Assembly (NCBI RefSeq): GCF_001625195.1
Contig: NC_054390.1
Span: 4,364,027 to 4,428,026, forward strand
Source of the DNA: Drechmeria coniospora
Lineage: Eukaryota > Ascomycota > Sordariomycetes > Hypocreales > Ophiocordycipitaceae
DNA length: 64,000 bases
Direction: 5' to 3'
Shown here: positions 1-64,000 of the stretch, one piece after another
How the letters are laid out: each line of letters opens with the position of its first letter
Numbering within the stretch: the stretch's first letter is position 1
The notes under the pieces: model-generated
What the model was told of the DNA's origin: nothing
The model's input: the letters and a program-made list of their open reading frames with translations, nothing else
Databases searched by the model: none
Position numbers and translations under genes: made by a program

Positions 1-3000
1 AGTGGGGAACCGGTGTCTTATAATGTCCTGGAGCTGTTAAGCTTAGGGTTCTCTTGGAATGCGCAGGGGTTATAGCGTATCCTAATACCGAGCTAGCTAT
101 TGTGCAAGCATGTGAGTGGCGATAGACAAGTCGAATATCCACTTAGCGCGAACTTTATGCTGCGTTCCCAGTTATATTGTTCTGGCACTTGTACGAGTAT
201 GGTGGCCTCCCTACAACTATGAGCACTGGTTTCAGAAATTGAGCATTGTTCTCTGCATTAAAGCACATTATAATTATATGACTGCAATACTACAGTACCC
301 GTTCAAATGCATCCTTTACATCTCCATACAGTCCAGTAGTATAGTACAGATTGAAATAGTAAATATAACGAGAGCGAAACATAGCGAAATAAAGTCTGAC
401 TATTGTTGTTTGATGTTCTACTGAACCACAGCCTATGGATTCCACATAAGTTGTGCCCGTATATATCTCTGTACATACATAGAGGTCGTGAACGAGTTTA
501 GATATAGACGGTGAGAGTTTTATCTATGTCATTGTCGCTACCTTCTCTGCGTGTTCAACGTACATACTCCGTACAAGACCAAAGGGATACTAAAGATACA
601 ACAGGTACGAACAAAGTCCGCCTCTAAAATACATTCAATTCAAACACGTGGCGCTAGGCTCCATCAAGTGCGTATACTAACGAATATGCGCTGGAGGTAG
701 GATGGTTCCGGAACAAGTGCACCGTTAGCGTTGCAAGATGAAATCGTCCGTACAATAATTTGTGCTGCTTCTTCTTAGGTCCAAAATAAGGTTTCTCTTA
801 CTTCATGTTCGTGACCGCAATTCATGTCTCCTGCTCGCTAACGTAGGATCTGAAGGTAGGATTTTATGCAAGCATGCAAGCCGTTGCAAGAACTGTAATA
901 TGTACATAGTTATTATACGGTATAATTACAAGCATATCCCTAATAGTTCCCTGCTTATTGGCGACAGTTATTTACTAATGACCGAAGGTATTATTCGTAC
1001 TAAAATTAAGAAGTTTCGCTGCACAGTAGTTATCTGATACAACAGATGGTAGGGGGTCCGCCCTACCTGCGGCTACAACGAATCAAGTATCGTGAGATGG
1101 GTCAGAATCAATCTATTGGTGTTCTTGATTCTGCTGTTTTCTACCACTATATGTCCTCAGTGCCCGCTTAAATAGGCGTAGAAGTAGCTACCGTTACGTA
1201 ACTAACTACCCGGACTTAACCCCGTTACAGACCCGTTGGCGTGACATTATCATTATTCTTATTCTTGAGACGGCAATTCCGGTCAAAATCATAAAGAGTC
1301 CTTGCCAAATACGAACACCCAGCTGCCTATCTAGTCAGGCGAGCGGCTCCTTATGATTTTTCCTAGAGCCATGCCCTAATCCCTTTTCGTACCATCCGAA
1401 TATCCTCGTTAGCTATTCGATATGACTGTCTCAGTCAAAAATAAGCCAGTATCCATCCTTCTATTATAGATATAGCGCCATTGTACGAAGAGAAAGCAAC
1501 GTTCCCTCCGCATAGCTCCAAGACTGACCTAGTAGCGGTGGAGAGAACAAAGCAATTGCCTTCGTACCGGACGACATTAATAACTGCATTTGCAAGCTGT
1601 ACCGATTAGGATTGATCGCCACAAAATAAACCCATAACTTTAAAGCATCCATTGTTCTGTGAGTTATCGTCTTTGACACAGAGAACAATGGAATGCATCT
1701 ACGCTTTACCGAACGCTTACGATACAGCATACCGCCCGGGCTACAACGAATCACCCCCGACAATGGAATAGCATTAAAATGATAAGTTTACTCCTCATTT
1801 AGCATGCTTAGCACTATACTTTTCGACCAGCTAGTTAGTGCTTCTGCAAGCAGCAGTAGGCAGAATGGCCAGCTGTAACGTTTGCCGACAGGACCGATAG
1901 AGTCGGATGGATGAACACGATTTATGACGGACCATTTGTCGGACAATCGGGCGGCGGATCGGAACGACGCTATAGCCTGCATACGGATACTGTTTTTGCA
2001 GTACTACTTGACAGCAGTATTTACGAGTAATTTACCTGATGGACAGGGTTATCGTACAACTGGCTCGGTCATCCTTACCCGGATATAGTAGCCGCGATTT
2101 GATGAGGCACGACAAAGTGTAGCAACCCAAGGAGAAGGGGGATCCAAGATTCATACAATTGAAGAAACGGTTTCATACACACAGAGACCCGTTACATGCT
2201 CGAATTTTATAGTCAAATGTAATGAGGTGTTTCAAGTCCAGTCAGCAACAGGAAAGAACTATAGTATTCCCTGCCATACTAAAGGCTCGACAGCAGGTTA
2301 ACCCAAGGCTTACAGGAGACCAGCACATACGAGTACATGTAAAAGTGCACAATAGAAACGCTTTCAAAGAGTCTATGGGTAAGATATATATGACTCGCTT
2401 ACTGGTCAAGTACTGGCAAGACTTACTAAAGTAGGGGTGTTCACCTACATTACATGTACGGAGTTCTCGTACAGGGATAATCGCGCCACGCCCCACCTAA
2501 AGGTGTAGCACTTAATAGGTGTTACTTCGTACTGCAATTACTCCGTACGTACTCCGTGCTTGCGGACTAGAGTAGTTGCAAGTGTACTCCGTACATTTAA
2601 GTAATAATGCTCCGCGCATGTATCGTACAAACAGTAGTATAGCACAAGGAATACAGAGTGTGGAGATAGATCATATATACTCCGCATAAGTATGGGGCCA
2701 TTCATTCTGTTACTGCTAGAACCATCCTAGTGCTCACAGAAGTGGACTCATAGTCGTTGCAGAAGGCACTAATCGCATGACAATGTTGAAGCTCTTACTA
2801 AAAAGCCAAGAAAGCTATCGAACTACTTTATCATGGTAGGATCAAAGGAGTATTACGGAGTACAGTATGATGTTGATCTTTATACTAATTTACTTATACT
2901 TGCGTATACATGTGCATATACATGTGCAGCACTTGCAGTACAGCACGTACACTTATTGCACATTATTATTGCGCAAGCATGTATGCGAGCACGAGTACTT

Positions 3001-3900
3001 CTACTCCGTACAAGACAATTGCAGTACAGTAACACTGCGCAAACAAGTACCCGGGTACGAGTACTTATACTCCGTACAAGTACGCATATCACATGCGTGG
3101 AGATCGGAACATTCGGAGGTAAGAGCGAATGGAGTATCACTATCAGTACCCAACAGATTGTGGATAATTCTGACTAGACCTACTCCTACTCCTATAGCAG
3201 GGACCCTCAAGTCCATGCAGCTATAGATATAGTATCAGTATCGTAGGAACGTTAAGCGCAGGGTCAATAATCCTCAATTCTACGTCCAAGACTGAAAACT
3301 ACTAACATCATCCCCGGCACTTTACCTTAGCCAACGAATATGAGGAGCAACAGATGTAATGGCAGAGGTGAAACCTTTTGTGATGCCTGAGAAAGGAATG
3401 CCTGGTGTACACGCACTCCCCCAACCTATAGGTGAACGCGACTTTGGTTCCCTTTGGGTAAGAGCAGCGACCTACATTTTCTCTACCTACGGCATCTGTA
3501 AAGGCACAATGAACCGTCCATGCCGCTGGGAATAGTTTTTAATTCCTCGATATTCTATATTTATGCAGGATATGGCGAGTATTTTTGCGGAATGTACAAT
3601 CACTGGCTTATTTAGTAAGTTAAGTATTTTGCTACAACATGAATACTAGCATGCATGCAAGTTCAGGTGAAGACTTGCACGAGTAATGCTTGTATGCTTT
3701 ATACAAGTACTCGATTCATTTATTAATTGCACAGTGTACACCATACCACCAAAGGAATGGAGTCAGGGGTATTACTAATACCTCGTGGAAGGAAGTGAAC
3801 ATTGGTGTCCAAGTACTTTACAAGCTGGGTTTTTTTTAGGCGTACGGTCCGTATAAGTATTCGTTCCGTATATCACATCAGCTGTAAACATTGCACCAAC
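1..3900. repeat. Left copy of a ~3.9 kb direct segmental repeat
   Basis: This stretch aligns collinearly, with many substitutions and indels, to about 15,481-19,270. Anchors: the AAGCTTAGGGTT block near 40 and 15,517; GTGAGTGGCGAT at 110 and 15,610; GGTCCAAAATAAGG at 778 and 16,313; the AATGAGGTGTTTCAAGTCC block near 2,220 and 17,688; GGTAGGATCAAAGGAGTA near 2,836 and 18,281; CTTGGAAGGAAGTGAA-like sequence near 3,785 and 19,153. The left copy often shows T or A where the right has C or G, as expected from repeat-induced point mutation (RIP), though this was judged by eye. Open frames inside are short and not shared in frame between copies, so no gene is called. The right copy is the upstream flank of the microexon gene, so this copy is probably the upstream flank of a second such gene lying left of base 1. 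Confidence 0.8.
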
Positions 3901-4262: not shown

Positions 4263-6435
4263 TTAATACGGCTATCAGAAGCAGGAGCATTAGTGAAACC
4301 AAATGGGATAATAGACAATGTAATTGTTCGACATACGGGCTATAGTAATACGAAACTTTTTTAGCATTTAAATCGCCGACAGAGTGACTGTAATACATTG
4401 TGGCTAGGGATCACTTACTTCCTAAAACATGAATTATGCGAATTAGTTCGTCAGAAAAAAACCTAGTCATTTGACAGAAACAATATACCACCTGTGATTT
4501 GTTACATATTAACATAAAGACAGATTTATAAATGCCAGGCTCGATATAGGTAACCACGCACCACCTAGATTAGATATTCCCGATGCATTAGCGTTCAAAA
4601 AAAGAAAGAAATATACGGTAAAAAACATACCCGATACTTCTTCTATTATTTCAAACCTTTCTTTAGTATATTGTTGTAAGTCCAAACTGAGCAAGAGTAT
4701 TCAAGCCTACTCTTTGTAACTGTGTATCTTACTATTAGCATCTTATAGTACACACACTATATTAGTAGCAATTGCTTACCTCTTGGTCCTATATTTCGTC
4801 ACTTAATATTAAATTCCAAGATCTATAGTAGCCACTATATATTACCGGCTATTACAGTAAGCTGCATCAGCATGTCGAATTATTGATTTCAATCTTTGAT
4901 TGGAAGCAGCTATGTTTCTCAATCGGCGCAATTCAACCTACCTTCTAAACAACGTGAATATATTAGTACATTAATAGTAGTTCTAGGCTACATCCGGATA
5001 ATGCTAAATATTTTATAGACTAACCTTTTTGATCTCAGCCGGCGGGTTATTCTTCTGTTCAACTGGAGGTAAAGCCTCTTCAACTAGAGGTTTAGCCTCG
5101 TTAAGCTGAGGTTGAGCTCCCTATAGTAGCCAGCCGTATCAATATCTAAGTAATAATTCTTAATAGTTACCAGTCAACACACCGTCTAAACAAAGTAAAT
5201 ATATTAGTACATCAATCTTAATACAAGGCTAGATCTCGAATGCATAGCTACTAACCACAGTATTGAACTCGGTAGGCTAGGATTAACCTAAGCATACTGC
5301 TCATTATTTGCGTATTTTCAGCAACATACCTTGGCGTCTGGCTAATGTTGCAATAAGGTAAGATACAATGCATTAATGCCAGTTTCAAGTTTACACATAA
5401 CAACCTACTTGAACCTTAATATTGATGAGCTTAACAGTCAGCTGTATCCGTATCTTAAAATTCAAGACTCCAGAAGGCCTGTTGGTAAACACCTACCTTC
5501 TAAAATATACATCTTTCTTAGCATATCGCTAGCATCAACACATTCCACCTACTGACGGCAGAAACTTACTGACTAGCCCACTATTGTATTAGAATAACTA
5601 GATAACCATGCTATCATGATTCGCGTTAGAACATACCTGCTCCCTTTTTTTTTTCTCCTATTACAGTTGCCCATATTAATATTATGCTGATAATCGGACT
5701 CTACCAATATTGCTAACAGGAACTTAAAACTTACCTCCTAAATCGACTCCTGCATTAGTATAACAAACGATGATGCTGCTCTATCATATAGTTAGGATTC
5801 ACCTCAGCCGCCGCTTTTTGCTATCAAAGATGCCCCTGTAAATATGATCCTGATAACTAGGCTCTACCAATATTGCCAGCAGGGACGTACTCTCTAAACT
5901 CGCTGGTACATTAACGAATCGATGCTATTTTATTTATAGTACAAGGTAGTTTGGAACTTACGGCAATCAACTGGTTTAAAATTTAGCCAAAAACCTGCCT
6001 CAAAACAACGTATTCATATTCATTAGATTGAACGCACCATTGGCCGCAGGTGTGTCAACGGAATAACTTTGGTCCTCTATAACGACCAGTAGTATTATCA
6101 TCAGACCAAGTCAAACTCCTTGTAGATTGAAATAGGCACTTACGATCTATCGTTCTCACTATCAGCAATAGAGTAACTTTTGAGTTCCAAAACAAATAAG
6201 GTACAAGTAGGAACCTACCCCCTATAGCATGGTATATCAGAATTGTGATTCAACAAGTCTTCATGTGCTATCAGCGGGAAAGCCTACATTCTGGAGCAAG
6301 TCAATATATCAGCACAACAATGACTCTTTCTATTCGAGATGCAACTCACTCCCTAGTATTGAGGTGGAAGTCAGTCAATGGCCAAGACTTTACTTTATTA
6401 AGAGCAACAAGTAAGAAGATTGAACTTACCACGGA
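4263..6435 (-). other. Microexon gene, part 5: exons 132-159, with longer exons
   Basis: Exons: 6430-6435 (6 nt), 6350, 6288, 6219, 6144, 6068-6076 (9 nt), 5962-5970 (9 nt), 5891, 5803-5820 (18 nt), 5735, 5637-5657 (21 nt), 5570, 5497, 5409-5414 (6 nt), 5330-5341 (12 nt), 5256-5276 (21 nt), 5183, 5025-5120 (96 nt), 4942, 4846, 4780-4788 (9 nt), 4711-4719 (9 nt), 4631-4642 (12 nt), 4562, 4489, 4419, 4337, and the terminal 4263-4271 with stop TAA. Single numbers are 3-nt exons. All keep phase 0. The 18-nt exon encodes QKAAAE, the 21-nt exons EKKKREQ and PTEFNTV, the 12-nt exons PDAK and KKYR. Least certain: 5409, 4942 to 4846 (93-nt intron) and the 97-nt intron between 6068 and 5970. If the 4562 donor is not used, reading continues 12 codons to a stop at 4,526. 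Confidence 0.7.
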
Positions 6436-9400
6436 CTACCATTACACAGTATATCTAATTAGTATACTGCTAGTATTTAATTTATCAGCTAGCTAGGTTC
6501 CAACTTACAACCTAGATGACCTGAATTAGCGCAGCAAGCTTATTTCCCATAGAAAATTAGGCAGAATTTACACGCTATAATGCCGCTTTCCATTAGTAAA
6601 TCCCCACTACAATCGTCATGTTTCTGAATGAACGACTTACGAGCTATTATTTATCTTAGCGTACTGCCAGCTACTCACCAATTCGATACACTAGAAGCAT
6701 AAGATAAGATGTTGAGGATAAATAGGACCTTACCGTCTATTATTTATTTTAGTATTATTACTCTCCTTGCGCATTTTCTGCTAGTAGTTATTTACTTGCT
6801 AACGAATAGTGTTAACAGAGTACTAGCAGCTACAAAAGGTTCGTCTAGGATACAGATAGCTTACCGACTACGGTTTGCATATATATTAGCATCTGCAAAG
6901 GGATCTTTTGCACCAGGTACATATAGACCGGACGTACTAACTAATGGCACATTAGAATCCGGAATCCTTTCTGGCCAAATGAAACAAACCAAACTTACAC
7001 ACTGATATTGTCCAAGTATAAGCCAAAGTAGCAATTTTGGTCAACAGTCGGGCCTAGCACTTACTTGCTAGAGTAAACCGGCTTAGATAATTCCTAATAA
7101 CAAAAAGCTTCCCTACTAGGACATGCATACTTGCTTGCGTATCCATCGTATTAGATTACTGCTAGTAACTGGATCGGTCCAGAGCTATCGAAATAAACTA
7201 CCTTCTACAGTAGCGAGGCATATTAGAATTCTACTAGAATTCTCATAAGTTTTTAGTAATGATCTTACGGCCTTAAAACTTTGTTAAACCTCAATAACAG
7301 CATTCAATCGTAGAATAACAAACGCACATGCTGTAGTCATAAGCTAGATTATTATCCATATACAACAGTAATAGGTAAAGTAGAAACTTGCGTTCTAATA
7401 TATAAGTTAATATCTATCGACAGCCTTTCGCTTTCTATTATGGCGGCAGAGCTTACGAACTAGAGTTATCAGCCGCATTAGCATATCGGCATTACCTTTA
7501 TCTACAGCAAATGCAGGAAATTACTTACAGTCTATAATGATTCTGCCGTGTAAGATAATTGCTAACAAATGCGTAAGGACTTTACACTTTGATGTATCAA
7601 CGTACAAACTGCAGTTTCCAATTGACTTAGCCCATACATATCAAGAAACATGACTACTTCCTATATATGTGTGAACTTACGTCCTAAGGATCCGGCATAT
7701 CAATACTTTACTAGCGCTAGGCATTTTAACTTTGCAATAGCAAGGACATACAAGCTGGAAGTTCGCAATTATATTAGCATCTACCTATTACCCCTTAGAC
7801 AACTTAATGAGGAATACTTGCCGTCTAGTTTGCCAAGTTTAGCCCACTGCTACAAATGCAACTTTTTGAACAAAAATCAAACGCTTACTTCCTGTACATA
7901 CGCATTAGCTAATGGCTGGTTGCTAAAACTTAGCATTACAATAAATACTTACACACTAGTAATTCGTTTTAGCAGCTTACAGATGTCCGATGTTTTGAAG
8001 GTAAAGGCAAGACTTTACCAGCTAGAGATTCCACAGACTTCAGCAAGAATTCCTCGATGCAGCTATGAACAATACGTACCAACTATTCAAAGTCAAAATT
8101 CACTTCCTACAACCAGTTTTGGTTTTATCCTATCAGAAATAGAACTTACGCACTATATTTCCCAACAATTTTAGTACAATGCAAAAATGGAGCATAATTA
8201 AGACCAACAGACTATAATCGCCAGTTAATATCGATTCAACTAAATGGGGTACTTTGTTAAACTTACAATCTAGAGCAATTGCCGACTTAGTTTTATCTAC
8301 TTAAGGTTCGTAATTCTGAAGCATACATACTGTTATTGTATTAGTTTTCGTCTTATATATACTTTGCTTTTAAAAGTATTAACTTACGATCTAAATCTTT
8401 AGTATCGGCTAGTGCTCTACCGCTTTTTTTAAAAATAGTCAGGAGCGTACAGATTTCTCCTAAATATCCGTCATATTAGAACGCTATAAGATTCATATCA
8501 TAAATATACAGTTATAGGAAGGAACTTGCCATCTATATTTACCGCTATATTAGCATACAACATTATACCTACCTGAATCTGTTTTGTGTATCGATTGTTT
8601 AGAAGCTCACCTTCTAGAATCTCGAGTGATTCAATAGTTATACTAATAGTCCTGCACTTTTGTTGAAGGTACTTACGCCCTATCAATAGGAGATATCAGT
8701 GCCTAGAGTTAGACGTTCCCTCACTCACAGGGTGGAACATACATGCTATCGATCCCTGCCATATTAGCATTATGCACCTTCACTTATTGCTAGCTGTCAG
8801 ATGAAACCTACACACTATTAATTGTAGAGTATTAGCATCCAAGGTAGTAATAAAACAAATATCTTTAACATACTTTCTAAAAAACATAAAGTTACAATCA
8901 GACAAGAATAAATAATGATAGAGAGAACTTGCGTGCTAGCAATCGTTAGCTGTTTATATTATCTTCGACAATACATAGAGAATGGGGATATACAGTCTAC
9001 AGCCAATAGAAATTAGTACTATGCGTTGTAACTGATATTATTCATAGTAAACCTACTGGCTATATCGTAATTCAAATGAGTATCGTCCAAAATTAACACT
9101 AGCCGTCACAGTACGAAGCTTACAATCTAAACAAATGTATCAAACATTAATATAAATGATATTTTGGACGTTGTCGAAATTAAATGGAAACAAACAAGCT
9201 AGTGTTCAAGTTATGTCAGCGTAGTAATACAAAATGTTTTCAAATGATATTAGTCAAAACCTACCTTCTAGAGATACTCCCTACTTTAGAAACTTTCTCG
9301 GCAATAGACTCGTCTGAATATTGGGTGGTAACTAACGCCCTATAGGTTTTATATTTTTAGCGAAAATATATGTTAAGATTAATAGCTACTGGCTTACAAT

Positions 9401-12400
9401 CTTAAATTAGAGTGATATTAGTGTCTCGTCTATAGATCTATTTTTTGTTAATGGATGATCAAAACGTACATACTATACAGTTTAGTTACGATTGGAATTG
9501 CTAAAACGAAGCATTTTAATGATAACGAGAAAATACTTACGCGCTAGTTGCAAGCTGCATTAGTATGATACTATATTAACAATACCCAGGAACTACCTTT
9601 GGGAACATACCCACTAGAATAGCCAGCAATTAGCGTATACCATCATCAGCTGGTTACAATATAGAACCTTAAGAGGCTATAGCTGCCATCCTCATTAGTA
9701 ACATTTGTAATTAAAATTGCTTTAACAATAGGAAAGTACGTAACCCCCTAAGATATATAAGTTGTGCAAGAACTACTTAAGCAATCCGATAATGGAAATT
9801 ACCTTCTACAGTGTCCAGTCGTATAAGTATTCACGGTGTAATTTGAACAGTCCGAGGAAGAAATTACAGTCTATAGTTTCCAGTCGCATAAGTATTTATG
9901 GGGCGCTGTTACTGCTTATGGTCAGAACTTACAGTCTAATATGTCGCGCTTTATTAGCATTTTGCGATAGCCTGCGACTGTTTTGTCTACAAGCTCACTT
10001 CCTGTATTTATGAATTTAATTGATTTACTAATATATAAGTACGATACAGATATATATTTTAGTAACGTACGTTCTAAATTATAAATTATATTAGTGTACA
10101 AATTGCTAGCTATTGGCAAGAAATATACTTACATGCTACAGGCATTTGAGCATAATGCTGGTATTATCTTCCCCTGTACTACAGATAAAAACCTTACTGG
10201 CTAAAGAAGTAGAAGACATCAATACATCTTAAAACGTATTTCAGATTCCTGTCGGAGCTCACCAACTGTTAATGCCAACTTTATTAGCATATATTAAAGA
10301 ATAAATATTCCGAAGAGGTAACAATAGCATACACCCTATTTTGAGATATGTATGAATATTTACGCTAGGAATACTAATATTCTGAGTTTTTATTACGAAT
10401 GAATCAACGTACGAACTATAATTCATAGCGCTTAAGTATCACGTTACTCAACACAGCTGGTAAACGTATAAAAACGTACCAACTAGAATATTGAGACACA
10501 TTAATACCTCTATAAAAGGGTTGCGACAGAAGGAACATACAGCCTAGACTTATTCGTTATCAAAAATGTCGCTAAAAGTTATGGTAGCACTCATTCATTA
10601 ATAACTAACAAACTATGAACAAGCAGCACTATTAGTTACAAAGAATCTGTTATCGTTATAAAGTATGACTCACGAACTAACGATGCCGGCGCATTAGTAT
10701 TATACTAGCAGTGGAGTTGAATTGCAACTTGCTTTCTAGAGTTCAATCCCATCAATAATTAAGCTGCCCTTGGTAGGAAAATAAACATACGCCCTAGATA
10801 TCAGATCATCAGTATATCGACAGCAATTAAATTATTGTCACACGTTATTGTGTACCTTCTAGTATTGCATTATTTTAGTATATCCGCACTGATGATAAAA
10901 TTCATCGCGTCAGATAGAAAACATACTCCCTAGTTGCCGGTCTTGTTAGCTTATAATCAATAAAGAGGTACGTTCAGACAAAGTACATAGGAGCAACTTA
11001 CAATCTACACACGAGTTATCCGTTTGTCAATGATCAACAATCATGGTTGTTGCTTGTACAAGTAAATACTAACAAGCTACAGGTATTATCTGTATCAGTA
11101 GCTGGCCAGCAATATGAACGTAGTTAATTGCGAGTTACAACATACATCCTAGAATAAATATATAGGTTATTACTAAAAGTACGACTCGATAATAGTTATA
11201 TGTAGTAACCTACTTGCTAAATTGTTGCATTTTAGTAATTGGCAACAATCTGGGTCGATTTGGTGGGAAAATACGTCCTAGTTGCCAGGCGTTTTAGAAT
11301 CCTAATGCGATACTATTCGTTTTTATTAGAAGGAAATTTTATACCTCCTAATGGTAAGTTAGGTTAGCTACTATACAATATAAGTAGCATCGCCGAAAAC
11401 AAATAGAGCCAAACATACAATCTGGGAGCCATATTAGCATCATCGCTCAATTAGAACAGCTAATAATACAAACACCAACTTACGGGCTATATTTGCCAAC
11501 CATATCAGCATATAAACAGCAAAATACCTTTGTTACATATATAATGAGCAACTGACTATCTAAAGCATTGTATATAAGTATGAAATTCATGCTTTCTACA
11601 AAACAAGCAACATCATACTGTCTACTTGCGGTATAAGCATAATAAATCAACCAAGTTATTCTTCCTGTAAGGTAAGAACGTACGCCCTGAGGTTGTACGC
11701 TACGTTAAATTCTTAGGTCGTTCTAGAGGATAGATATCTCTTACTGGCTAGAATTGCCACCTATATTAGTATGTCCAGAGTGGTTGTAAGTGTATGGGAG
11801 GCGCCATACAGGCTACAGTTGTTATTAGGATGGACTGTTGCCTGTAATCCAAGGAAGGGCATACTGTCTAGAATTGCCAACCATATTATCAGGATGAGTT
11901 CAAAAAGAATTATCGACTAGGAAAAACTTACCTCCTAGAACCATCCGCCAGTTTAGCTAGCATACCGCAAGTAGTCAATACAATGAATATTGGGGTAAAT
12001 GACTTACCCACTAAAAGGGACCAACTAGATTAGCAAACCGCCAGACATATAAGCCGCATCAATTTGCAGCTAGCATCCAGACTTTTGTAGGGACTTGAGC
12101 AAGAACTTACGAGCTATGTAATCAGTTGTATCAGTATTCGGAAGGCCGTAACATTCATAGCTGGATTTAGAAAGGAAATTACCTTCTAAAACATTTTCAG
12201 TAGTAGCACTTCGCCACTTACAAGGGGCGCCAATACTGAATAGACTTACAGCCTGCAGTTGTCAGCCACACTCGACCTTCCGGTCCATTCGCTTTTTTTC
12301 AATTCTTGTATCCAGCTTACAGCCTAGAGAGTCCTAATTAGCATCGAAATTGCACTTGACAGGTACAATCCGAGCCAACATACTTTCTAGCGTTCCATGT

Positions 12401-15368
12401 ACATCAGAATCTAGTGCGCCCATATTCGCCAGATACGTATTGGATCTTACTTGCTAGATTCATAGTTACAATGCATTAGTAACAACAAGGTATGTTCACC
12501 AATACTAAATTGACTTACGCCCTGCAATATTCAGCCACACGCGCTCCTCCTGTCCATTCGTCTTAATGCCAATGCTGAAAACCAACTTACAAGCTAGAGA
12601 GTCCTAATTAGTAACCTGAACGCATTTGACAGATAAAAACCGAACAAATATACTTCCTAGCATTCCATGTACATCAGAATCTCACCAGATTTGCTAGATA
12701 CATAGTGGATCTTACTACCTAGATTCGGAGTTACAATCGCATTAGTAGCAACAGGTTGGGTTCAATAATCGGATGTTGTTTGTTCAAACATACAACCTAA
12801 ATATGCAGGATAACTTAGAGTCTTATATTCAATAATAAAAGTGGTAATATTACAAGTTCGTACCGACTAATAATCATTTTAGCACTAGACTTCAGGAGGG
12901 CTCATTCAAGAAAAACATACTTCCTAGATATAGCAGCGTTAGTAGCAGATAACTCTAAATAGGAAATCTCTATAATGAGCAAAAGCCTACGATCTAATTG
13001 TTAGTAGTAATGTTAGCATCTTGGTACAACGTAATTATTGGTTTGAACTTACAACCTAGTATTGCCAGCTGTATTAGACCGCAACGAGAAAGACCAGTAA
13101 TTTTCCTCATTATATCTACATACATCCTAGCGTTAGCAACCGAGTTAGTACATCGTTAGAGTAAACGAATTATGTATTTGATGCAGGAACTGACCAGCTT
13201 AAATACCAGCCTGATTAATATCGCGCTGTACTTAGGCCTACTAGTATTTGCCGGCTCCAACGTACAGGCTTGAGATGCCAAACGTATTAGAGCAGTGCTA
13301 GTAAAAGCTCGTATTAGATATTCTAGTAGGGGCCATACGCTCTAGCATTGGACTCCATATTAGCACGCTACTAGCTTTCCTAGGTTATTCTAGTCCCTAC
13401 AGTCTAGTGCTAGTTATATTATTATTTCATATGTAAATCTTCTGTTGCAGCTTACGTGCTATACATAGTCATTATCAGCCGCGTATCTGAATAATTGATT
13501 AATCCGAGGAGCATACTTTCTAGGTTATTAGCCGTGTTAATATACCGCCATGATCGATGTTGGACGATACTAGCACCTGCCTTCTGAGAGTGGGTACTCA
13601 GGTTAGTGTATCGCTATATTCTATATGCGACTGGTAGATATCAATAGGATATCCACGGCGGGGGTTTAGAACTTACCGACTGAGTTTTACGATGCATTAG
13701 GCTACCACTGGCCAATGCATGTATCGTGTAGAGCATACATACTAGCGTTAATCGTAGTATTAGCATCACAATGAGTGCGATACTGAACGATACAGCACCT
13801 ACGAACTAGAGTGATACACCGTGTTAGTACCTCACTATCAAAAAAGATACTACTTGCGGGGACAGGACGTACAAACTATAGTCATCTGCCGTATTACCAC
13901 CTCGACATTCAGACCCTTCCATAGCCACCAGCCCAAACTTACGCCCTTCAATTACCAGATGCATTAGATGACCGCTAGTGAATGGCCAATAGTGTATGAT
14001 GCGAAGAGCATACTCTCTAGGGTTGGTAGCCATATTAGCAGCTTTATAGCGGCATTTTAGGATAATAACACCTACGACCTGCAGTGGTATGTCGTGTTAG
14101 TGTATCACTAAAAAATACTTGTTGCTTGTAGGTCCAGGACTTACAGCCTGAAGTTACACACTCAAGTCAAAAAACGGATCATGAAACGGCCGGGAACTCA
14201 AGTGCAAATACTTTCTAGAGTCAGTTGTCGTATTAGCATCGCACTGAGTTCTACATTAATCGCTACTATCTCTTACTCCCTAAAGTTGTATCCCGTGTTA
14301 ATTTCTCACTGACCGAAAAAAGTTACCAATTACGGGCGTAAGACTTACAGGCTGTAGTTACCAGCTGTATTAAAAACTTGATATTTCAGACTCGTCTACA
14401 GTCAACAGCTCAAACTTACGATCTTAAGTTTTCAGAGGCATTAGAATACCATAATAATATTGTGCATTACAAGGAGCGTACTTCCTAGTTTTAGAAATCG
14501 TATTAGAATAACCCCACCAATTTCTACACTATGCAAGTTTAGGACGAGCTAACTATCTAGAGTTGGCCCAGGTTATTATGCTGTCGTGGTGTCAAGTCGT
14601 AAGAAGGGCGATATTCGAAACTAACCAGCTGGAGTTTCTGCGTATTAGGACCGCGGCTATAAAATATCATCGTTACGAGGGACATACAGTCTAGTATTAG
14701 AAGTTATGTTAGCATACTTCTGGACTAATTTATCAAAGAGGGACATACAGCCTAGTATTAGAAGTTATGTTAGCATACTGCTGGACTAATTTATCAAAGA
14801 GGGACATACAGCCTAGTATTAGAAATTATGTTAGCATACTGCTGGACTAATTTATCAAAGAGGGACATACAGTCTGGTATTAGAAGTTATGTTAGCATAC
14901 TGCTGGACTAATTTATCAATTACAAGAATTCAAGAATGCACCGACTAGGATTACGAATGTTGTTAACACTGTCTATCAAATATTACAGGTAACTTACGTT
15001 CTAGTGCAGGTTGTATTAGCAATACCTCGAACTAATTTTTGGGGGATATTGGAATATAGAAAATAGCATACGAACTAGTCCAATACAATAAATTAGAATA
15101 CATTATATTATGAATTCATACGGCAAGATAATCACAAGCTGTACGAACTTACAAGCTGCGATTTGGAGCAATATTAGCAAAATACGATACGGGGCTGGTT
15201 ACCGCATAGATCTTACGCCCTAGATGTTTAATTGCATAAGAATTTAGTTAGATCCTAGCTTGTTATTATCGTACTTACGCGAGGCAACACCTCCGACACC
15301 ATGTTAAATGTTCCGAATGCGATTCCTTGGCCAGCAAGGAATCCTACAGACAATATTGAGGGCTTCAT
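4263..15368 (-). CDS. Secreted-protein gene built of ~159 exons, ~143 of them a single codon
   Basis: Function unknown. Exon 1 is 15,279-15,368 (90 nt, 30 codons): it starts at an ATG in a good fungal context (GCCAAAATG), and its N-terminus, beginning MKPSILSVGFLAGQG, looks like a signal peptide. It ends exactly at a GTAAGT donor in phase 0. From there to 4,263 a module recurs about every 55-100 bp on the minus strand: a branch site (CTAAY or CTGAY), an acceptor (mostly TAG or CAG, sometimes AAG), exactly three bases, then a donor (GTAAGT, GTATGT, GTACGT, GTAGGT, GTGAGT, GTTAGT, rarely GCAAGT). I count 158 such exons; about 143 are 3 nt and the rest 6, 9, 12, 18, 21 or 96 nt, always multiples of three. 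None of the later codons before the last is a stop, and the final exon (4,263-4,271) reads CCG TAT TAA. The product has about 257 residues: two N-x-T sequons, four cysteines in the central part and an E/K/P-rich tail. Expression is not shown. The alternative, a satellite imitating splice sites, does not explain the fixed 3-nt spacing or the open reading. Confidence 0.82.
5025..5120 (-). other. 96-nt exon of the microexon gene with internal E-A-x-P repeat
   Basis: The largest exon after the first. It starts directly after a TAG acceptor and ends at a GTTAGT donor; its 32 codons are open in the same phase as all other exons. The encoded peptide carries imperfect repeats of the type NEAKPLVE / EEALPPVE, visible in DNA as about 21-nt repeats around 5,058-5,107. 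It is hydrophilic, proline- and acid-rich, then basic at its end. A 96-nt exon open in the predicted phase is independent support for the gene model. Confidence 0.75.
6509..8996 (-). other. Microexon gene, part 4: exons 94-131
   Basis: One-codon exons at (lowest plus coordinate): 8994, 8933, 8874, 8812, 8743, 8677, 8611, 8530, then a 9-nt exon at 8451-8459, then 8388, 8327, 8267, 8209, 8150, 8080, 8019, 7953, 7889, 7822, 7752, 7681, 7606, 7529, 7457, 7392, 7328, 7269, 7202, 7131, 7065, 6999, 6938, 6865, 6796, 6734, 6641, 6572, 6509. Cysteine codons fall at 8812, 8150, 7953 and 6999, the only cysteines I read in the protein. GC-type donors (GCAAGT) follow exons 8933, 8530, 7822 and 7392. Confidence 0.78.
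9057..10929 (-). other. Microexon gene, part 3: exons 65-93
   Basis: One-codon exons at (lowest plus coordinate): 10927, 10856, 10791, 10733, 10674, 10610, 10541, 10480, 10413, 10333, 10263, 10198, 10133, 10071, 9999, 9933, 9868, 9803, 9745, then a probable 9-nt exon at 9668-9676, then 9611, 9541, 9470, 9398, 9337, 9265, 9196, 9124, 9057. The 10733 exon has a canonical GC-type donor (GCAAGT). The 9668 exon needs the weak donor GTTCTA; skipping it would leave a 131-nt intron and stay in frame. Codons at 10071, 9999 and 9933 read N-E-T, the second sequon. Confidence 0.78.
9792..9920 (-). repeat. Duplicated pair of 65-bp modules
   Basis: Units with exons at 9,803 and 9,868 share donor GTAATT and an alignable intron (CCAGTCGTATAAGTATT against CCAGTCGCATAAGTATT). 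The codons are AAG and ACT. This is another case of a copied module with the splice signals kept and the codon changed. Confidence 0.75.
11002..12993 (-). other. Microexon gene, part 2: exons 35-64
   Basis: One-codon exons at (lowest plus coordinate): 12991, 12921, 12864, 12794, 12716, 12654, 12591, 12519, 12451, 12384, 12321, 12250, 12183, 12111, 12008, 11932, 11865, 11810, 11745, 11684, 11619, 11557, 11484, 11419, 11345, 11275, 11214, 11146, 11074, 11002. The intron between 12111 and 12008 is 100 nt, the longest seen, so one unit may be missed or decayed there. The donor at 11557 is GTCAGT. Exons 12716 to 12250 lie in a duplicated four-unit block, described separately. Confidence 0.8.
12233..12770 (-). 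repeat. Older duplication of a four-module block (~269 bp)
   Basis: The block with donors at 12,244, 12,315, 12,378 and 12,445 matches that with donors at 12,513, 12,585, 12,648 and 12,710 (offsets 265-270 bp). Intron sequence is readily alignable, for example CTAGAGAGTCCTAATTAG identical in both and a shared CATGTACATCAGAATCT. Donor and acceptor positions are kept. All four codons differ: GCT/GGC, GCT/CTT, AAA/GAA, CAA/GTA, that is 7 of 12 exon bases. Confidence 0.85.
13053..15368 (-). other. Microexon gene, part 1: exon 1 and exons 2-34
   Basis: Exon 1 occupies 15,279-15,368. One-codon exons, given by their lowest plus-strand coordinate (each 3 nt, read on the minus strand): 15217, 15153, 15072, 14998, 14942, 14871, 14810, 14749, 14688, 14626, 14554, 14482, 14420, 14349, 14277, 14212, 14145, 14076, 14014, 13943, 13873, 13803, 13739, 13677, 13581, 13517, 13456, 13401, 13339, 13266, 13195, 13124, 13053. 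Examples: 15217 is GGC between TAG and GTAAGA; 15153 is CTT between CAG and GTAAGT; 14998 is AAC between TAG and GTAAGT. Codons at 14998, 14942 and 14871 read N-S-T, a glycosylation sequon assembled from three exons. The donor at 13581 is the GC type (GCAGGT); that after 14942 is the weak GTGCAT. Confidence 0.8.
14677..14920 (-). repeat. Four tandem copies of a 61-bp intron + one-codon-exon module
   Basis: Four almost identical 61-bp units start at 14,677, 14,738, 14,799 and 14,860. Each holds one 58-nt intron and one 3-nt exon (exon bases at 14,688, 14,749, 14,810 and 14,871). They differ at a handful of positions, one being the exon itself: minus-strand codons are ACT, GCT, GCT, ACT (Thr or Ala). 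This is recent tandem duplication in which each copy adds one in-frame amino acid. Confidence 0.93.
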
Positions 15369-15480: not shown

Positions 15481-18400
15481 AGCCGGGAACGCTGTATCTT
15501 ATACTCTCCTAGATCTAAGCTTAGGGTTGTCTCGGAATGCGCTAAACTGCTTTCTAGTAAGTAATAATAGTTAGCGTCTCTTGAAGCCGAGCTAGTTTTT
15601 GTTCAAGTATGTGAGTGGCGATGTACTGGTCAAATCTCCACTTAACATGAACTTTATGCAGCCATCCCAGTAGTTAAGTATATGGTTTAGGCACTTGGAC
15701 GAGTATGGTAGACTTGTGAGCATGATTATGAACCTGTAAATATGGGGGGAGGCAACTGAGATGGAATGTCAGATACACAACTATAAGCATTGGTCACAGA
15801 AATGAAGCCCAGTTCTCTGCATTAAAGCATACGGTATGGCTGCCATACTACAGTGTATCCATCACGTGCAGATTTTACAGTAGTAGCACAAGTTTGAAAT
15901 GATAAATATAACGAGAGCGAAATATAGCGAAATAAAGTCCAACTACCATTATTCGACATTTTACCAAATCATAGCCAAAATAGTGCCTGTTTAGATTTCT
16001 GTATAATATACATAGGAAGTTGTGAGTGAGCGTGGATGGAGACAGTGATAGGTTCATCCACGTCATTGTCACTACCGTCGCTGCGTGTTCGACGCAGATA
16101 CAAGACCACGGAGATGATTGAGATACAAAAGGTACGAATGAATTCTACAACTAATTTAAATATATCTATATCTAGCACGTGGCGCTACACTCTATTAAGT
16201 GCGTGTGGTGACAAATATGCGCCGGAGGTTAAAGATGGTTCCGGAAAAGGTATAGATAGTGCTAGCGCTGAATAATGAAACCGTCGGTAAATAATATTCT
16301 GCTTCCACCTAGGTCCAAAATAAGGTTTCTCTCGCTCGTGTTCGTATCCGCAATTCATATCCCCTCATCGCCAACCTCAGGATCTGAAGGTAGAAATTCA
16401 TGCGAGGATGCAAGCTGTTGCAAGAACTGTAGCCTACATATGAGAGTACAGCTGTGAAGGATATATATAGGGTATAATGGCGAGCAGGTTACTAATAATT
16501 CCCCGCTTATTGGCGGCAGTCATTTACTAATGACCGAGGGTATTAATCGTGTTAAAATTAAGAAGTCTCGCTGTGGTTATCCTTGTTCTTATTCCTTCGA
16601 CGGCAACTCCGGTGAAAATCATAAGAGTCCTTGCTGAAAATGGAACATCCAGCCGCCTTACTAGTCAGGCAAGAGACTCCTTGTGTCTCTACCGAGAGCC
16701 ATGCCCTAAATACATATTCGTGCCAGCCGATATACCTCTATTGGTATTCAATACGGTCACCATAGTCAAGCTTCAAGCCTTTGTCCATAGTTAGTCCTAT
16801 TTTTGTGTTGCCACATGCACTACGGAGTAATAGATCTGACGCCTTCTTACGAACCTAAGTAGCGTTTCCCTCTGCAAGGCTTCAAGGTTAGCCTGGTAGT
16901 GCTGGGGAGAACAAAGCGATTGCCTATCGGAAGACACTATCACTTCATTTGTCGGCTGTAGCGATTGGGATTGATGGCTAAGAAGTTAGCCCATGACTTT
17001 CACGCATCTCTCGTTCCCCGAGTCATCCACTCATGCCATCCTGTACGGCATGCAACGTCATCAATTCGCTTCCATCAAGGGTATCGACGTCAACTGTATT
17101 TTGACATGCATGCACGGCCCTCCAAGTCACCGTTCTGGTGCACTAATGGGGTCCCGTACCGACACATAAAAATGATTGAATGCACCCGCACTTTACCGAA
17201 CGCTTACGATGCAACATGCCGCTCGGTCTGCGACAAATCGCCCCCGACGACGGAATAGGATCGAAAGAATACGTTTTCTCCTCATATAGCAAGCTCGGCG
17301 CTACACCTTTCGACCAGCTGGTTGGTGCTTCTGCGAGCAGCGGTTGGCAGAATGGCCAGCCGTAACGGTCGCCGACAGGACCGATGGAATCGGATGGACG
17401 AGCCCGATCTACGGCGGACCGGAACGACGCTATGGCCCTTATTCCGATCCTATTTTTGTGTTACCACATGCACTACGGAGTACCGTTGTAGTATTACAAG
17501 TAATGTACCAAATGAATGGGGTTCTCGTACAACTGGCTCAGCCGTCGTTACCCGGATATGAAAGCTGCGTTTTGATATGGGGAAAGCGTGGTGACCTGAG
17601 AAGGGAGATCCAAGATTCATTCAACTAAAGAAGCAGCTATACAAACAGAGAGAACCTTAACATGATCGAATTCCATAGTCGAATACAATGAGGTGTTTCA
17701 AGTCCGGTCAGCAGCAGGAAACAACAATAGCATCGCCAGCTCTACCATTGGTTCAACAGAATGTCAGTTCAAGGCCCACGGGAGACTAGCATACAAGTAC
17801 GCACAATGGCGATGCTTGCGGGGAGTCTACAGGGTAAGAAATAGATGGCTCCAGCTCACTAGTCAAGTACCAGCAAGTACTTGCGTATACGTGCGGGTAT
17901 TTACATACATGTACTCGCACACACATAGTTCGTAGTGGTGGTTCCGTGTCGTGAGTGTAGTAGGTATTGCTTCGTACTGCAATACTCCGTACGTACTGCA
18001 AGTACTTGCGAAGTGCAGTAGGTGTGCAATTAAGTAATAATGCCCTACGCATGTACCGTACAAATAGTAGTATAGCACAAAGAACACAGTGTGCCGAGAA
18101 CCACTCCGTAAATTTGGATTATATGTACTCCGCATAAGTATGGGGCCATTCATCCTGTCACTGCTAGAACCATCCTAGTGCTCACAGAAGTGGACTCAGT
18201 CGTTCCAGAAGGCAACAGCCGCATGATAATGTTGAAGCTATTACGAAACAGCCAAGAATGCCCTCCAACTCTTTGTTGTGGTAGGATCAAAGGAGTACTA
18301 CTTAAGGTGTCCAGATACTTGTAAGAACATACTTAAGTATACTACATGTACACTTACATGTTCAGCAATTGCTGAACTTACACCACAAAAACTCACGGTA

Positions 18401-19270
18401 CAGCATTATTGTGCAAGTACGTATCCGAGTACGGGCACTTTTACCAGTACGCATATTAACTGCACGGAGCTCGGAACATTCGGAGGTAGGAACGAGTGTT
18501 ATCAGCATCGGTACCCAATATATTGTGGAGACGTCTGTCTAGACCTACTACTACTTCTGCAACAAGGACTCTCATGTGTATGCAAGTATAGGTATAGTAT
18601 CGTAGGAACGTTCAGCGCGGGGCCGGTAATCCGCAATTTTACGTCCGAGACTCAGAACCACCAACATCATCCCCCGGCACTTCACCTTGCAAACGAACAT
18701 AAGGAGCAACGGATGTAACGGGAGAGGTGAAACTTTTCGTGAGGCCCGAGAAAACTTTGATGTAATGCCTGGTGTACACGCGCTCCTCCAACCTACTGGC
18801 GGACGCTACTTTGGTCCCATTGAGTAGGAGCCGCGACCTACACCATCTGCCCGCTGCATGTGTAAAGGCACACTGAACCGTCCCTGTCGCTGGATGTGGT
18901 TTTCGATTCCTCGACATTCCGTGTTCGTACAGTATATGGCGAGTACTTTTGCGGAATGCGCAATCACTGGCTCGTGTGCTGAGTCGAGGCTTTTGCTACA
19001 ACATGAATACTAGCATGATTGAGGTTCAGGGGAAGACTTGCGCAAGAAATGCATGTACTTATGCCGCATACAAATGCTCGATTCATGTATTAATTGAACA
19101 CTACAACATACACCGTAAGACCAAAGGAATGGAGCCAGGGGTACCCCTACCTCTTGGAAGGAAGTGAAGATGGGGGTCTAGGTACAAGTACTGTATTTGT
19201 ATATGCTGGATTTCCTTTCGGCGTGCAGTCCGAGCAAGTATGTGCAAGTACTCAACTACCGATATCAGCA
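15481..19270. repeat. Right copy of the ~3.9 kb direct segmental repeat
   Basis: Counterpart of 1-3,900 and the upstream flank of the microexon gene. Homology begins about 115 bp upstream of that gene's ATG and fades near 19,270. It holds only short, unsupported frames, tracts of TACTCCGTAC and CAAGTAC type, and no recognisable transposase or reverse transcriptase. The two copies bracket the gene in direct orientation, so the array plus this flank looks like one unit (~15.4 kb) of a larger tandem duplication. Confidence 0.8.
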
Positions 19271-57864: not shown

Positions 57865-58593
57865 CTATGCGCAGGTGGGATACTTGACGACGGCAATGAC
57901 GCCCGTGTCCCGGCCCTTATTGGCGAAGCTCTCGCCGAGCACGTGGATGCAGTGCTCGGTGTGATGCAGGTTCGCCGAGTAGGAATCCATTTGGATGCTC
58001 GCGTTCAGCATGGCCCGGTGCATCCGCTTCCAGACGTACATGCAGTGCATGAGGTGCATGTCGTAGGTGGAGGTGAAGTTGCGATAGTTTCCCAGTCGAA
58101 GCTCGTCCATGGTCATGTTTCGACCCTCGCTTTCGTAGTGCCACGACTGTCCGCCGTGCATGCTCTCCTCGTCGGCGGCGTCGTCGGCCGTGTGGCAGCC
58201 CGGGGGGAGCCAGCCGAAGAGGACGATGCTGTAGCGGCAGTTGCGGGCCATCGCCTCGGCCGGCGAGTTCCCGCAGTCTCCGTCGGACCAGTTCAGGGGC
58301 AGGCCGGTTTTGTTGCTGAGGCCCTCGCGGACGACGGGAAAGGTTCGATTGGCCACGGCTCGTCCCGAACCTCGCAGGTGCAGGCCCAAGGCGACGAAGA
58401 GAAGGATGGCGACGAGGGAGGAGGCGGCGCCGACGAGGCAGAGTCGAAGGGGCGTCGACTTGGACCTCGACCTCGGCCCGGCATCGGGGCTCAGGTCGGG
58501 CACGTCGCCGAGCTTGTACGGCCTGCCGTCTTCGCTCTCGCCGTCGGGTGCGAGGGCATACTCGGCACTCGCGGGCCGCTGGTTCTTGAGCAT
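57865..58593 (-). CDS. UstYa-like membrane protein with two HxxHC motifs
   Basis: Single exon, 242 residues from ATG at 58,593 (a GTG two codons upstream is also open). Topology: cytosolic N-terminus of about 55 residues, one membrane helix (LCLVGAASSLVAILLFVALG), then a lumenal domain with N-glycosylation sites. The domain carries CGNSPAEAMARNC, WLPPGCHTAD, then HLMHCMYVWKRMHRA and HHTEHCIHVL. Two HxxHC motifs are the hallmark of UstYa/DUF3328-type oxidases that modify ribosomal cyclic peptides, but many fungal proteins of this wider family have no known pathway. No RiPP precursor or other cluster gene is adjacent, so a metabolic role is only a possibility. Confidence 0.75.
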   Translation of the reverse strand: MLKNQRPASAEYALAPDGESEDGRPYKLGDVPDLSPDAGPRSRSKSTPLRLCLVGAASSLVAILLFVALGLHLRGSGRAVANRTFPVVREGLSNKTGLPLNWSDGDCGNSPAEAMARNCRYSIVLFGWLPPGCHTADDAADEESMHGGQSWHYESEGRNMTMDELRLGNYRNFTSTYDMHLMHCMYVWKRMHRAMLNASIQMDSYSANLHHTEHCIHVLGESFANKGRDTGVIAVVKYPTCA

Positions 58594-60287
58594 GGCCACG
58601 CCCTCGACTCGAACTCGGCTCCGTCGTCGGTCTTTTGAATCGGGCGTGACGGGACAAAGGACGGCGGAGGCGATGGATGCTGGTCGGAGGCTTCGTGGAG
58701 GGCTGAAGCGAAGCTCGTCGTGAGATGGCTCGCGAGAAAGGCAACGGTGTGGCGGTACTTGTAGGTGAGCAAGGCGGCCTCGCAGATGCTACCGGCTCGC
58801 AGATGTTACCGGCACGGGACGGATGATGGCATGGTTCGCTGCTGCTATGACATGAAGAGAATCGGCTCTGAATCGTTGCATCGACCCAAGGTCGTACGAC
58901 GCGCGGCTTGGGCAGGTTCTTGTACTGGCGGTGACGCCGGGACGTCCAGGTGCCGTAGGAGTAGCGCCGCGCGCACGGAGTACTTGCACGTGCGTATTCC
59001 TTACCGTACTTGCGCGTTCGGAGTAGCCATATAGGTGTATAAATTACTCGATTTCAGCAGACGCAGAGGCTCGTCTCCGGGGAAGTTGCCTGATGTGGGT
59101 GGCATGGGTCGCTGTTCGTGTGTTGGCGCGTTGCAAGCGTTGCAAGGTCCGATCCAAGCAAGCAACTTGTGGGACGAAATCTCATGATACTCTGCATGCG
59201 CAAGTATTTACATGTATAAGTATGTAGTTGCATAAATACTCTGTACTTGCTCTGTGATGACTGCACGGAGATTATTGATAATAGCTGTGCTCCGTACAGT
59301 ACATACTACAGCTAAGCACTGTTCACTTGGGTATCAAGTACTTACATGTACAACTGCGTATATGCATGTACAACTACACCTGCGTGCACCTACTTGAACA
59401 TGCAGGAATGTGGGTATGTACCTGTACGGAGGACGAGCGTGAACTCGTGCTGGACGTTGCGTACTTGTACGTACGGTAGGCAGGTTGGTGTTGGTGCACG
59501 CACAGTTTGCAAGTAGATGGACATACCGTGCGAGAGCGCAACAACAAAGTACATGTGAATGGAGGCAGGTGCAACACGCTTCATTGTCCCGCACGAAATA
59601 CTTCACCTCAAAAAGGAAGAGTAAAGGAAGCGAATCGTACAGTATACAACTGGGTGCGCCTACTGTGCACGATAATAACCGCGCTTCATTGCCGCGTAAG
59701 TATGAATACTGCGCCCAGTACGGAGTAAGGAAGTGCCTACAGTGTGCAAGCAGGCATCATGCCGTGCTACCATGTAAACGACGCATACTCGAGCTTACTT
59801 GGGCCGTATGAATTATGACTAGTCGTACGGCGCCAAAACAAGGAAGAGGAGTGTATCGTACAGTGTCCAAGCAGGCTCACGTACCGTGCCACGGAATACG
59901 AAGTGCAAGCAACCACGCTTCCATGTCCCGGATGAATTATGAATAATAAATAATACTGCACCTAGCGAGAAAGTGCATCGTACTAGTTGTACGGTGTCCC
60001 AGGAGGCGTCCGTGCCGTGCTATGGGATGCAGAGTAAGCACAACTACTTGGCTGTACAAGGAACCACGCCTCGTCTCGTCTGAAATACTGGGCCTGGGTC
60101 CCAAGTGCATCGTGCATATAAGTACGGAGTACAGCACGACAATCTCATGTTACCTTCGGCCATCCTGAAGGATCGGACGGATGTGCACGGCTACCGTTTC
60201 AGTATCATCATTCACGCACTAGATCCGTCTGCCGATGGATGGGAATGGAGAAGACTCCACCGAGGCGGACCCGATTCCGTCAGGATG
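58594..60287. other. Gene-poor spacer
   Basis: No supported gene. Dense in GTACGGAG, CAAGTACTTACATGTACAA and similar short palindromic motifs, especially 59,200-59,520 and 59,700-60,060. Confidence 0.45.
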
Positions 60288-60640
60288 CCGCGACGGTTGG
60301 GTAGAGCGTTTGGGTTTCCGTACCGCCTACGAAATAATATTACGACATGACCCTACTTTCACTCTCATTTACGGAGCACATCCGCCTAAATGTACTTTTC
60401 TACAGTACAAGTACGTAAGTGTAAGCGGTTGCAAGTGCGTAATGATGACTTGTGCTTCGTAGTAAGTGCATGTAAGTACAATACTTATTACTATACACCC
60501 ACTTACACCTACGGAGTACAGTCATGACCGGCGTACTTGCAGGCAGGTGTGGTTGTACGCACCCCCATGCTCACGAGTGTAGGTGCACAGTAATGCTCCG
60601 TAGTTGTGCTTGCAGTGCTCAAGTTCGCAACTGTCAACCG
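60288..60640. repeat. ~350-bp direct repeat, left copy
   Basis: Matches 63,658-64,000 in the same orientation. Shared blocks: CGGTTGGGTAGAGCGTTTGG, CGTACCGCCTACGAAATAAT-like and AGTACAGT-GTGACCG-like sequence, then CTTGCAGGTGTGGTTGTACG-like sequence. The left copy includes extra bases such as the doubled GCAGGCAG. The right copy runs to the window end, so the full length is unknown. Confidence 0.85.
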
Positions 60641-63403: not shown

Positions 63404-63657
63404 TATCAGTGGTGGGGCGTGGCACGAGTAGTCTATTACGAGCCAAGATACAAGAGCCTTATACCGACCGATTCGATCGATTCCCGTAGGGGCGACTGGA
63501 ATAAAGCAAGGGATAAAGGCGCAACGATGCGAAAAGAGGTACCGTATCTGCGACTCTCGTTTGCGTTTCCTTTATAGGAACGTTACGTCTTGCGAATAGA
63601 TGTGCCTGTACTATCGTTATATCGCAACGTTGCCTCGCCTCTCTGCTCGTCCGTATA
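63404..63657. other. Spacer
   Basis: Short unannotated sequence between the DNA transposon and the repeat copy; no gene. Confidence 0.4.
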
Positions 63658-64000
63658 CCGCAACGGTTGGGTAGAGCGTTTGGGTTTCTGTACCGCCTAC
63701 GAAATAATGCTATATCATAACACTACTTGCACTCTCATTCACGGAGCACATCTACCTAAATGTACCTTCTACCGCACAAGTACATAAATGTAAGTGGTTA
63801 CTGCAAGTGCGTAATAATAACTTGTGCTTTGTAGCAAGAACATGCAGGTACCGCACAATACACCTACGTCCTGTACACCTACGGAGTACAGTTGTGACCG
63901 ACGTACTTGCAGGTGTGGTTGTACGCACCCTTATGCTCACAGGTGCAGGTGTTATGCTCCGTAATTGTGATTGTAGTGCTTAAGTTCGCATTTGTCAACC
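63658..64000. repeat. ~350-bp direct repeat, right copy (cut by window end)
   Basis: Counterpart of 60,288-60,640, more AT-rich than the left copy. The last bases (TTCGCATTTGTCAACC) match the left copy just before 60,640, so homology may continue beyond the window. Confidence 0.85.

Follow-up and report, generated by a model that had tools for sequence, protein, structure and literature searches.

A Drechmeria coniospora gene family predicted to consist mostly of single-codon exons

The fungus Drechmeria coniospora (Ascomycota, Hypocreales, Ophiocordycipitaceae) is an endoparasite that kills nematodes. The stretch of its genome analyzed here (the window; 64,000 nucleotides, C2:4364027-4428026, from an assembly of 32.8 Mb in 28 contigs) raises the question whether a gene can be built mostly of exons that are one codon long. 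The initial annotation had read positions 4263-15368 of the window, on the minus strand, as about 158 repeats of a splicing unit comprising about 143 single-codon exons. Over 413 aa, an aspartyl-tRNA synthetase encoded in the window matches the D. coniospora protein at 100% identity. In published gene models of this species, a gene has 2.83 exons on average, with a mean exon length of 504 bp (PMC4859500, excerpt).

The strict motif YAG-N(L)-GTRNGT was matched 74 times at L=3 on the minus strand of 4263-15368, and 0-9 times at each other L between 0 and 39. No match at L=3 was found on the plus strand of the same region, and the window outside it contained three on the minus and two on the plus strand. 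The gene, termed W, was then parsed with a Viterbi splice parser that started from general fungal preferences for donor, branch and acceptor, refitted to W, left exon length free and ignored stops. At an intron penalty of -2 this parse yielded 154 introns (median 64 nt), and 126 of the 155 exons were 3 nt long. The number of 3-nt exons varied with the penalty (95/132 at -4 and 26/78 at -6), with 3 nt being the commonest length at each. Fifteen dinucleotide shuffles of W gave a mean of 0.3 and a maximum of one 3-nt exon, and the opposite strand gave none. Chance as the source of the 3-nt pattern was thus ruled out by the other exon lengths, the opposite strand and the shuffles.

A second model of W, in which phase 0 and the absence of stops were imposed, consisted of 158 exons, 143 of them of 3 nt, and ended with a stop at 4263. 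These counts agree with those of the initial annotation, as does the modelled 90-nt first exon with its ATG and signal-peptide-like start. The predicted structure was otherwise the same, whereas the lengths proposed earlier (about 774 nt and 257 residues) were replaced by a coding sequence of 810 nt including the stop and a protein of 269 aa. Single-codon exons account for 429 of these 810 nt, and the longest run comprises 99 consecutive ones (exons 2-100). The donor of exon 83 departs from both GT and GC; this codon may be skipped in W (Table 1).

Searching the D. coniospora genome with the upstream and exon-1 DNA of W pointed to three more minus-strand loci on C2, and four additional arrays in tandem (A1-A4) were found in the 80 kb flanking the window on its left. 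A sixth gene, B, lies on the plus strand 1.4 Mb away and was reached via the upstream DNA of A2; no second array was present in the 90 kb examined around B. A protein search of the same genome gave, among the best candidates scored, six exon-1 matches corresponding to the six genes and three further matches to repeats in the tail of A3, and the DNA searches with upstream and exon-1 stretches gave no matches beyond the family. The family therefore has at least six members in the stretches pointed to by matches and among the best candidates scored. The tandem unit takes in about 3.7 kb of upstream DNA. Beyond the upstream region of W, two open reading frames starting at ~19475 and ~21801 (plus strand) have, by eye, similar secreted-protein-like N-termini and are possibly a pair of small secreted proteins.

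Table 1. Positions of the six genes (C2 coordinates) and of features within the window (window coordinates); fractions are 3-nt exons among internal exons in the free parse
Feature	Position	Strand	Remarks
A1	ATG C2:4307893	minus	111/143
A2	ATG C2:4328407	minus	123/151
A3	C2:4331812-4345507, ATG 4345507	minus	138/179
A4	ATG C2:4363920	minus	123/150; just beyond left edge of window
W	ATG C2:4379394	minus	126/153
B	C2:2964420-2975183	plus	113/142
W, exon 1	15279-15368	minus	90 nt, ATG, signal-peptide-like by eye; homologous exon 1 in five paralogs
W, exons 2-100	8530-15219	minus	99 single-codon exons; introns 52-126 nt; all phase 0 in model
W, exons 101-147	5183-8459	minus	single codons plus exons of 9, 6, 39, 9, 18, 21, 21, 12 and 21 nt (phase-0 model)
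W, exon 148	5025-5120	minus	96 nt (phase-0 model)
W, exons 149-158	4263-4944	minus	stop TAA at 4263; C-terminus alike in A4, variant in A3
W, exons 56-124	6938-11559	minus	conserved-core codons; end one codon past fourth cysteine
W, exon 83	9674-9676	minus	single codon, donor neither GT nor GC; A4 donor there canonical
61-bp intron-plus-codon unit	14677-14919	minus	four tandem copies (ACT GCT GCT ACT)
Four-unit tandem duplication	12230-12764	minus	77% identical
Duplication offset by seven units	13735-14445	minus	about four units alike, 13735-13968 vs 14208-14445, 70%
Upstream region of W	15572-19241	minus	68-77% identical in pieces to 73-3860
Upstream region of A4	73-3860	minus	matches 15572-19241

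Inside the six arrays the strict motif occurred 5-20 times per 2-kb bin, compared with 0-2 times in bins wholly outside and 0-1 times on the opposite strand. When the parser trained on W alone was applied to the family, so that the five paralogs were out-of-sample, 734 of 918 internal exons were 3 nt long. Shuffles of W, A2 and B (15 each) contained 0-1 such exons, and so did the opposite strands of these genes. The best phase-0 models comprised 152-188 exons per gene, of which 131-155 were of 3 nt (848/967 in total), and 129 of the 143 single-codon exons of W aligned with single-codon exons of A4. Longer exons recur towards the 3' end, with lengths of 39, 9 and 18 nt in A1-A4 and W, and of 39 followed by 15 nt in B. 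The tail of A3 contains four near-identical repeats of 32 residues, each made of a 57-nt exon, a 33-nt exon and two single codons, and four modelled acceptors of A3, spaced at one per four introns, are not AG. Either unit duplication also acts on longer exons in this tail or a modelled border is off.

None of the 734 three-nt exons of the free parse was a stop codon (TAA, TAG or TGA), compared with 26.6 expected from the positional base make-up (P 1.7e-12); the phase-0 models exclude stops by construction and were left out of this test. This result bears on the alternative that the single-codon exons are mostly skipped. In the mature mRNA exon 1 would then be followed by the longer exons of the 3' part, with the array acting as a single long intron that contains recursive or decoy splice sites. 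Splice sites only 3 nt apart are sterically demanding to use. Moreover, no gene consisting mostly of single-codon exons was found in the titles and abstract openings searched, which covered few subscription journals. Both points speak for skipping; however, untranslated triplets would contain stops, and neither the invariant cysteines nor the constraint on core codons described below (w 0.34) would be expected in them. We consider skipping of most of the array very unlikely.

Over the 961 introns of the six genes, the donor positions +1 to +6 carried 1.98, 1.81, 1.17, 0.30, 1.42 and 0.80 bits of information, whereas the three exon bases preceding the donor, measured in these 961 introns alone, carried 0.04, 0.04 and 0.01 bits. 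The splice information is thus almost all intronic, which leaves the codon free to change. Median intron length was 65-66 nt per gene. Introns started with GT in 931 and with GC in 28 of the 961 cases, the two exceptions being a donor in W and a donor in A3, and 11 of the 961 modelled acceptors were not AG; some borders are therefore wrong or some exons skipped. The most frequent best-scoring branch pentamers were CTAAT (352), CTAAA (87), CTGAT (77), TTAAT (74) and CTAAC (64), and a weak consensus around the branch site was common to a subset of introns. Retention would introduce an in-frame stop for 796 of the 961 introns. We infer that each intron (median about 65 nt), with its own donor, branch site and acceptor, would be removed by intron definition, and that the introns would be taken out stepwise, one after another; at a spacing of 3 nt, an acceptor and the donor that follows it can hardly be occupied together. 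Since the intron would carry all signals, exon length would be irrelevant to recognition. As the lengths of the modelled exons are divisible by three, the loss of one by skipping would remove a residue and preserve the frame.

The six predicted proteins, assembled codon by codon, aligned with 26-50% identity. The alignment across all six comprises the signal-peptide-like first exon and a four-cysteine core, in which the residues W, C, Y, C, C, H and C are invariant in six of six; the C-terminal ends of W and A4 are alike, and A3 has a variant of them. Across the six proteins 30 columns are invariant, and 13 of these are encoded by single-codon exons in all six genes. The four invariant cysteines sit in such exons. 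Eight of the 13 columns show synonymous codon variation, including two of the four cysteines. Conservation of the core of the predicted spliced product was thus demonstrated at the sequence level.

The paralogs were aligned as genomic DNA, with introns rather than protein anchoring the alignment. In six paralog pairs the splice signals were 83-96% identical and the intron bodies 57-74%. For the assessment of selection, three pairs with no gene in common (W-A4, A1-A2 and A3-B) were pooled. The predicted core codons (187 pairs) were less divergent than introns (0.258 vs 0.313, OR 0.76, p 0.006), their differences fell on the three codon positions 41, 42 and 62 times (third-position excess p 0.017), and w was 0.34 (bootstrap 0.22-0.51). 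As modelled, the core codons are under purifying selection. The N-terminal codons (135 pairs) were more divergent than introns (0.415 vs 0.293, OR 1.71, p 4.5e-7) with w 0.92 (0.62-1.38), and would accordingly be near neutral or diversifying. Taken singly, three of the six pairs showed a core less divergent than introns at p<0.05 (A2-A3, A2-B and A3-B), in two this was not clear (W-A4, p 0.14; A1-A2, p 0.86), and in W-A3 the core was more divergent than introns (p 0.04).

In both the core and the N-terminal regions, synonymous sites diverged by 0.43-0.46 and intron bodies by 0.29-0.31, which indicates that the intron bodies are partly constrained or that the alignment favours them. Positive selection was considered for the internal duplicates of W, where 23 of 39 exon columns differed compared with 193 of 583 intron-body columns (OR 2.9, p 0.0016; three duplicated blocks, 8 mixed columns dropped), and for the N-terminal codons of the pair W-A4 (OR 2.5). 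This reading is not supported by the w of 0.92, and since synonymous sites exceed intron divergence in both regions, positive selection is not shown.

The lack of stops among the 734 exons together with the constraint on the core codons ruled out a non-coding array. A more specific form of this idea is that a former gene holds an array of satellite-like or selfish introns (introner expansion), whose splice signals were kept by recent duplication. The tandem duplications inside W, the subset of introns with a weak branch-site consensus and the off-consensus donor of W would fit such an array. Against it, few alike intron pairs stood out in W among the 12246 compared (a comparison made without a shuffled control), and between paralogs the splice signals are far more alike than the intron bodies. 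In view of this and of the coding signatures we regard such an origin as improbable in the extreme. The reading of the locus as a coding gene of single-codon exons, put forward in the initial annotation, was therefore upheld by five paralogs of the same architecture, the absence of stops, the aligning proteins and the purifying selection on core codons.

Within W, alike introns were mainly local duplicates, and at the site of the 61-bp unit W has three residues that are absent from A4. These observations suggest that the genes may have gained some residues through tandem duplication of a unit consisting of an intron plus a codon. Elsewhere in the window, a direct repeat (60278-60639 and 63648-64000) is 79% identical. 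The visible unit duplications and the near-neutral N-terminal codons also agree with an alternative in which the family is coding and spliced as predicted, but the one-codon structure arose neutrally as a by-product of duplicating units and the proteins have no role at the host interface. However, the six copies each keep about 150 or more introns with conserved splice signals, and the core is constrained. Although it deserves serious consideration, we judge this by-product explanation rather unlikely.

Searching for homologs gave no assignment of the product. W alone had no match at E<=10 among 5.8 billion proteins (1116 candidates, 0.55-1.75x query length), and neither had a five-member alignment searched against the protein database (7999 candidates scored, 0.55-1.75x query length). 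No match of weight was found in Pfam, where two families reached E about 0.1 with one member each, and the Protein Data Bank gave weak matches alone (E 0.4-0.8). Since genes of this kind would probably escape gene finders, their absence from protein databases tells little as to whether other species have them. Such genes are not mentioned in the passages on exons and introns covered from Drechmeria papers, nor in one section of PMC10512298. In that section, four annotated proteins of strain ARSEF 6962 are described as having 'atypical structures' and were left uncurated; these could be gene-finder attempts at such loci. Within the window, the minus-strand protein at 57865-58788, with two HxxHC-like motifs and no match in Pfam, resembles UstYa-type (DUF3328) proteins by eye.

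Taken together, we conclude that the six genes are very probably coding and spliced as predicted, mostly through one-codon exons in phase 0. What the genome sequence establishes is the modelled architecture, its presence in six copies, the absence of stops, the conservation of the spliced product and the unit duplications. The predicted product is probably a secreted four-cysteine protein, secretion being read from the first exon, which is similar and, by eye, signal-peptide-like in all six genes. Our best guess, towards which we lean slightly, is that this putative protein acts at the interface with the nematode host.

Of the known systems, schistosome micro-exon genes (MEGs) come closest in concept, though they are far less extreme. 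The exons of MEGs are mostly several codons long, the range of 6-36 nt being the figure of the initial annotation, whose comparison with schistosome MEGs and aphid bicycle genes was judged fair. In schistosome MEGs the coding region consists mostly of very small symmetrical exons, and the products are secreted or found in glands where host and parasite meet (PMC4350168, excerpt). The six Drechmeria genes are similar in that their coding regions are mostly very small symmetrical exons (734/918 internal exons in the free parse, 848/967 in the phase-0 models). They differ in having one-codon exons, 131-155 per gene and up to 99 in succession, and in belonging to a fungus. Alternative splicing that generates a pool of similar proteins is a trait of the MEG family. 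The protein-database search, an indirect comparison at 0.55-1.75x query length, revealed no sequence relation to MEGs.

Aphid bicycle genes, which are putative effectors, have many small internal exons that share a phase; their exons number about 17 on average and are nearly all in phase 2, and 2092 aa are encoded by the 118 exons of one megacycle gene (PMC9168663, excerpt). This gene thus encodes about 18 aa per exon, compared with about 1.7 in W. The internal exons of bicycle genes are in phase 2, whereas those of the six Drechmeria genes are in phase 0 in the best models, which places them outside the bicycle definition; phase was not imposed in the free parse, and 734 of 918 internal exons were still of 3 nt. 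Spliceosomes of plants and animals can include exons of 1-15 nt, such as the 1-nt exon of plant APC11, and these microexons, as described there, are single or few in otherwise ordinary genes (PMC8831610, excerpt), whereas in W they would be the main form of the gene. According to its abstract, the microexon of Xlr2 in Trichoderma is the first functional one described in filamentous fungi (PMC11121469); it is a single regulated microexon in a transcription factor gene of a related filamentous fungus, whereas W contains an array. Fungal introner-like elements are multiplying introns (PMC4457414, excerpt) that are characterized by near-identical intron copies across many unrelated genes. In contrast, in the six-gene family intron and codon appear to multiply together, in tandem and within one family. 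What would set the predicted architecture apart is the near match of exon and codon over most of the gene's length. It would nevertheless work like a micro-exon gene, and in a stricter view it may be an extreme form of one.

Such genes would be expected to escape both gene finders and RNA aligners, and further ones may therefore exist undetected. D. coniospora infects Caenorhabditis elegans in laboratory use (PMC4859500, excerpt), and with this infection the expression of the genes, their order of splicing and the effect of their removal are directly testable. If the genes are transcribed and spliced as predicted, exon and codon would be nearly the same thing over long stretches, the fungal spliceosome would remove about 150 short introns per transcript, many of them 3 nt apart, and there would be no practical lower limit to exon size under intron definition. 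Duplicating intron-codon units could then lengthen and reshape the protein one codon at a time. Tentatively, and with considerable doubt, we suggest that each codon may be a cassette that can be skipped, duplicated or rewritten while the frame and the splice signals stay untouched, so that one gene might give rise by splicing to a large pool of in-frame secreted variants and, through unit duplication, might evolve residue by residue against a changing host.
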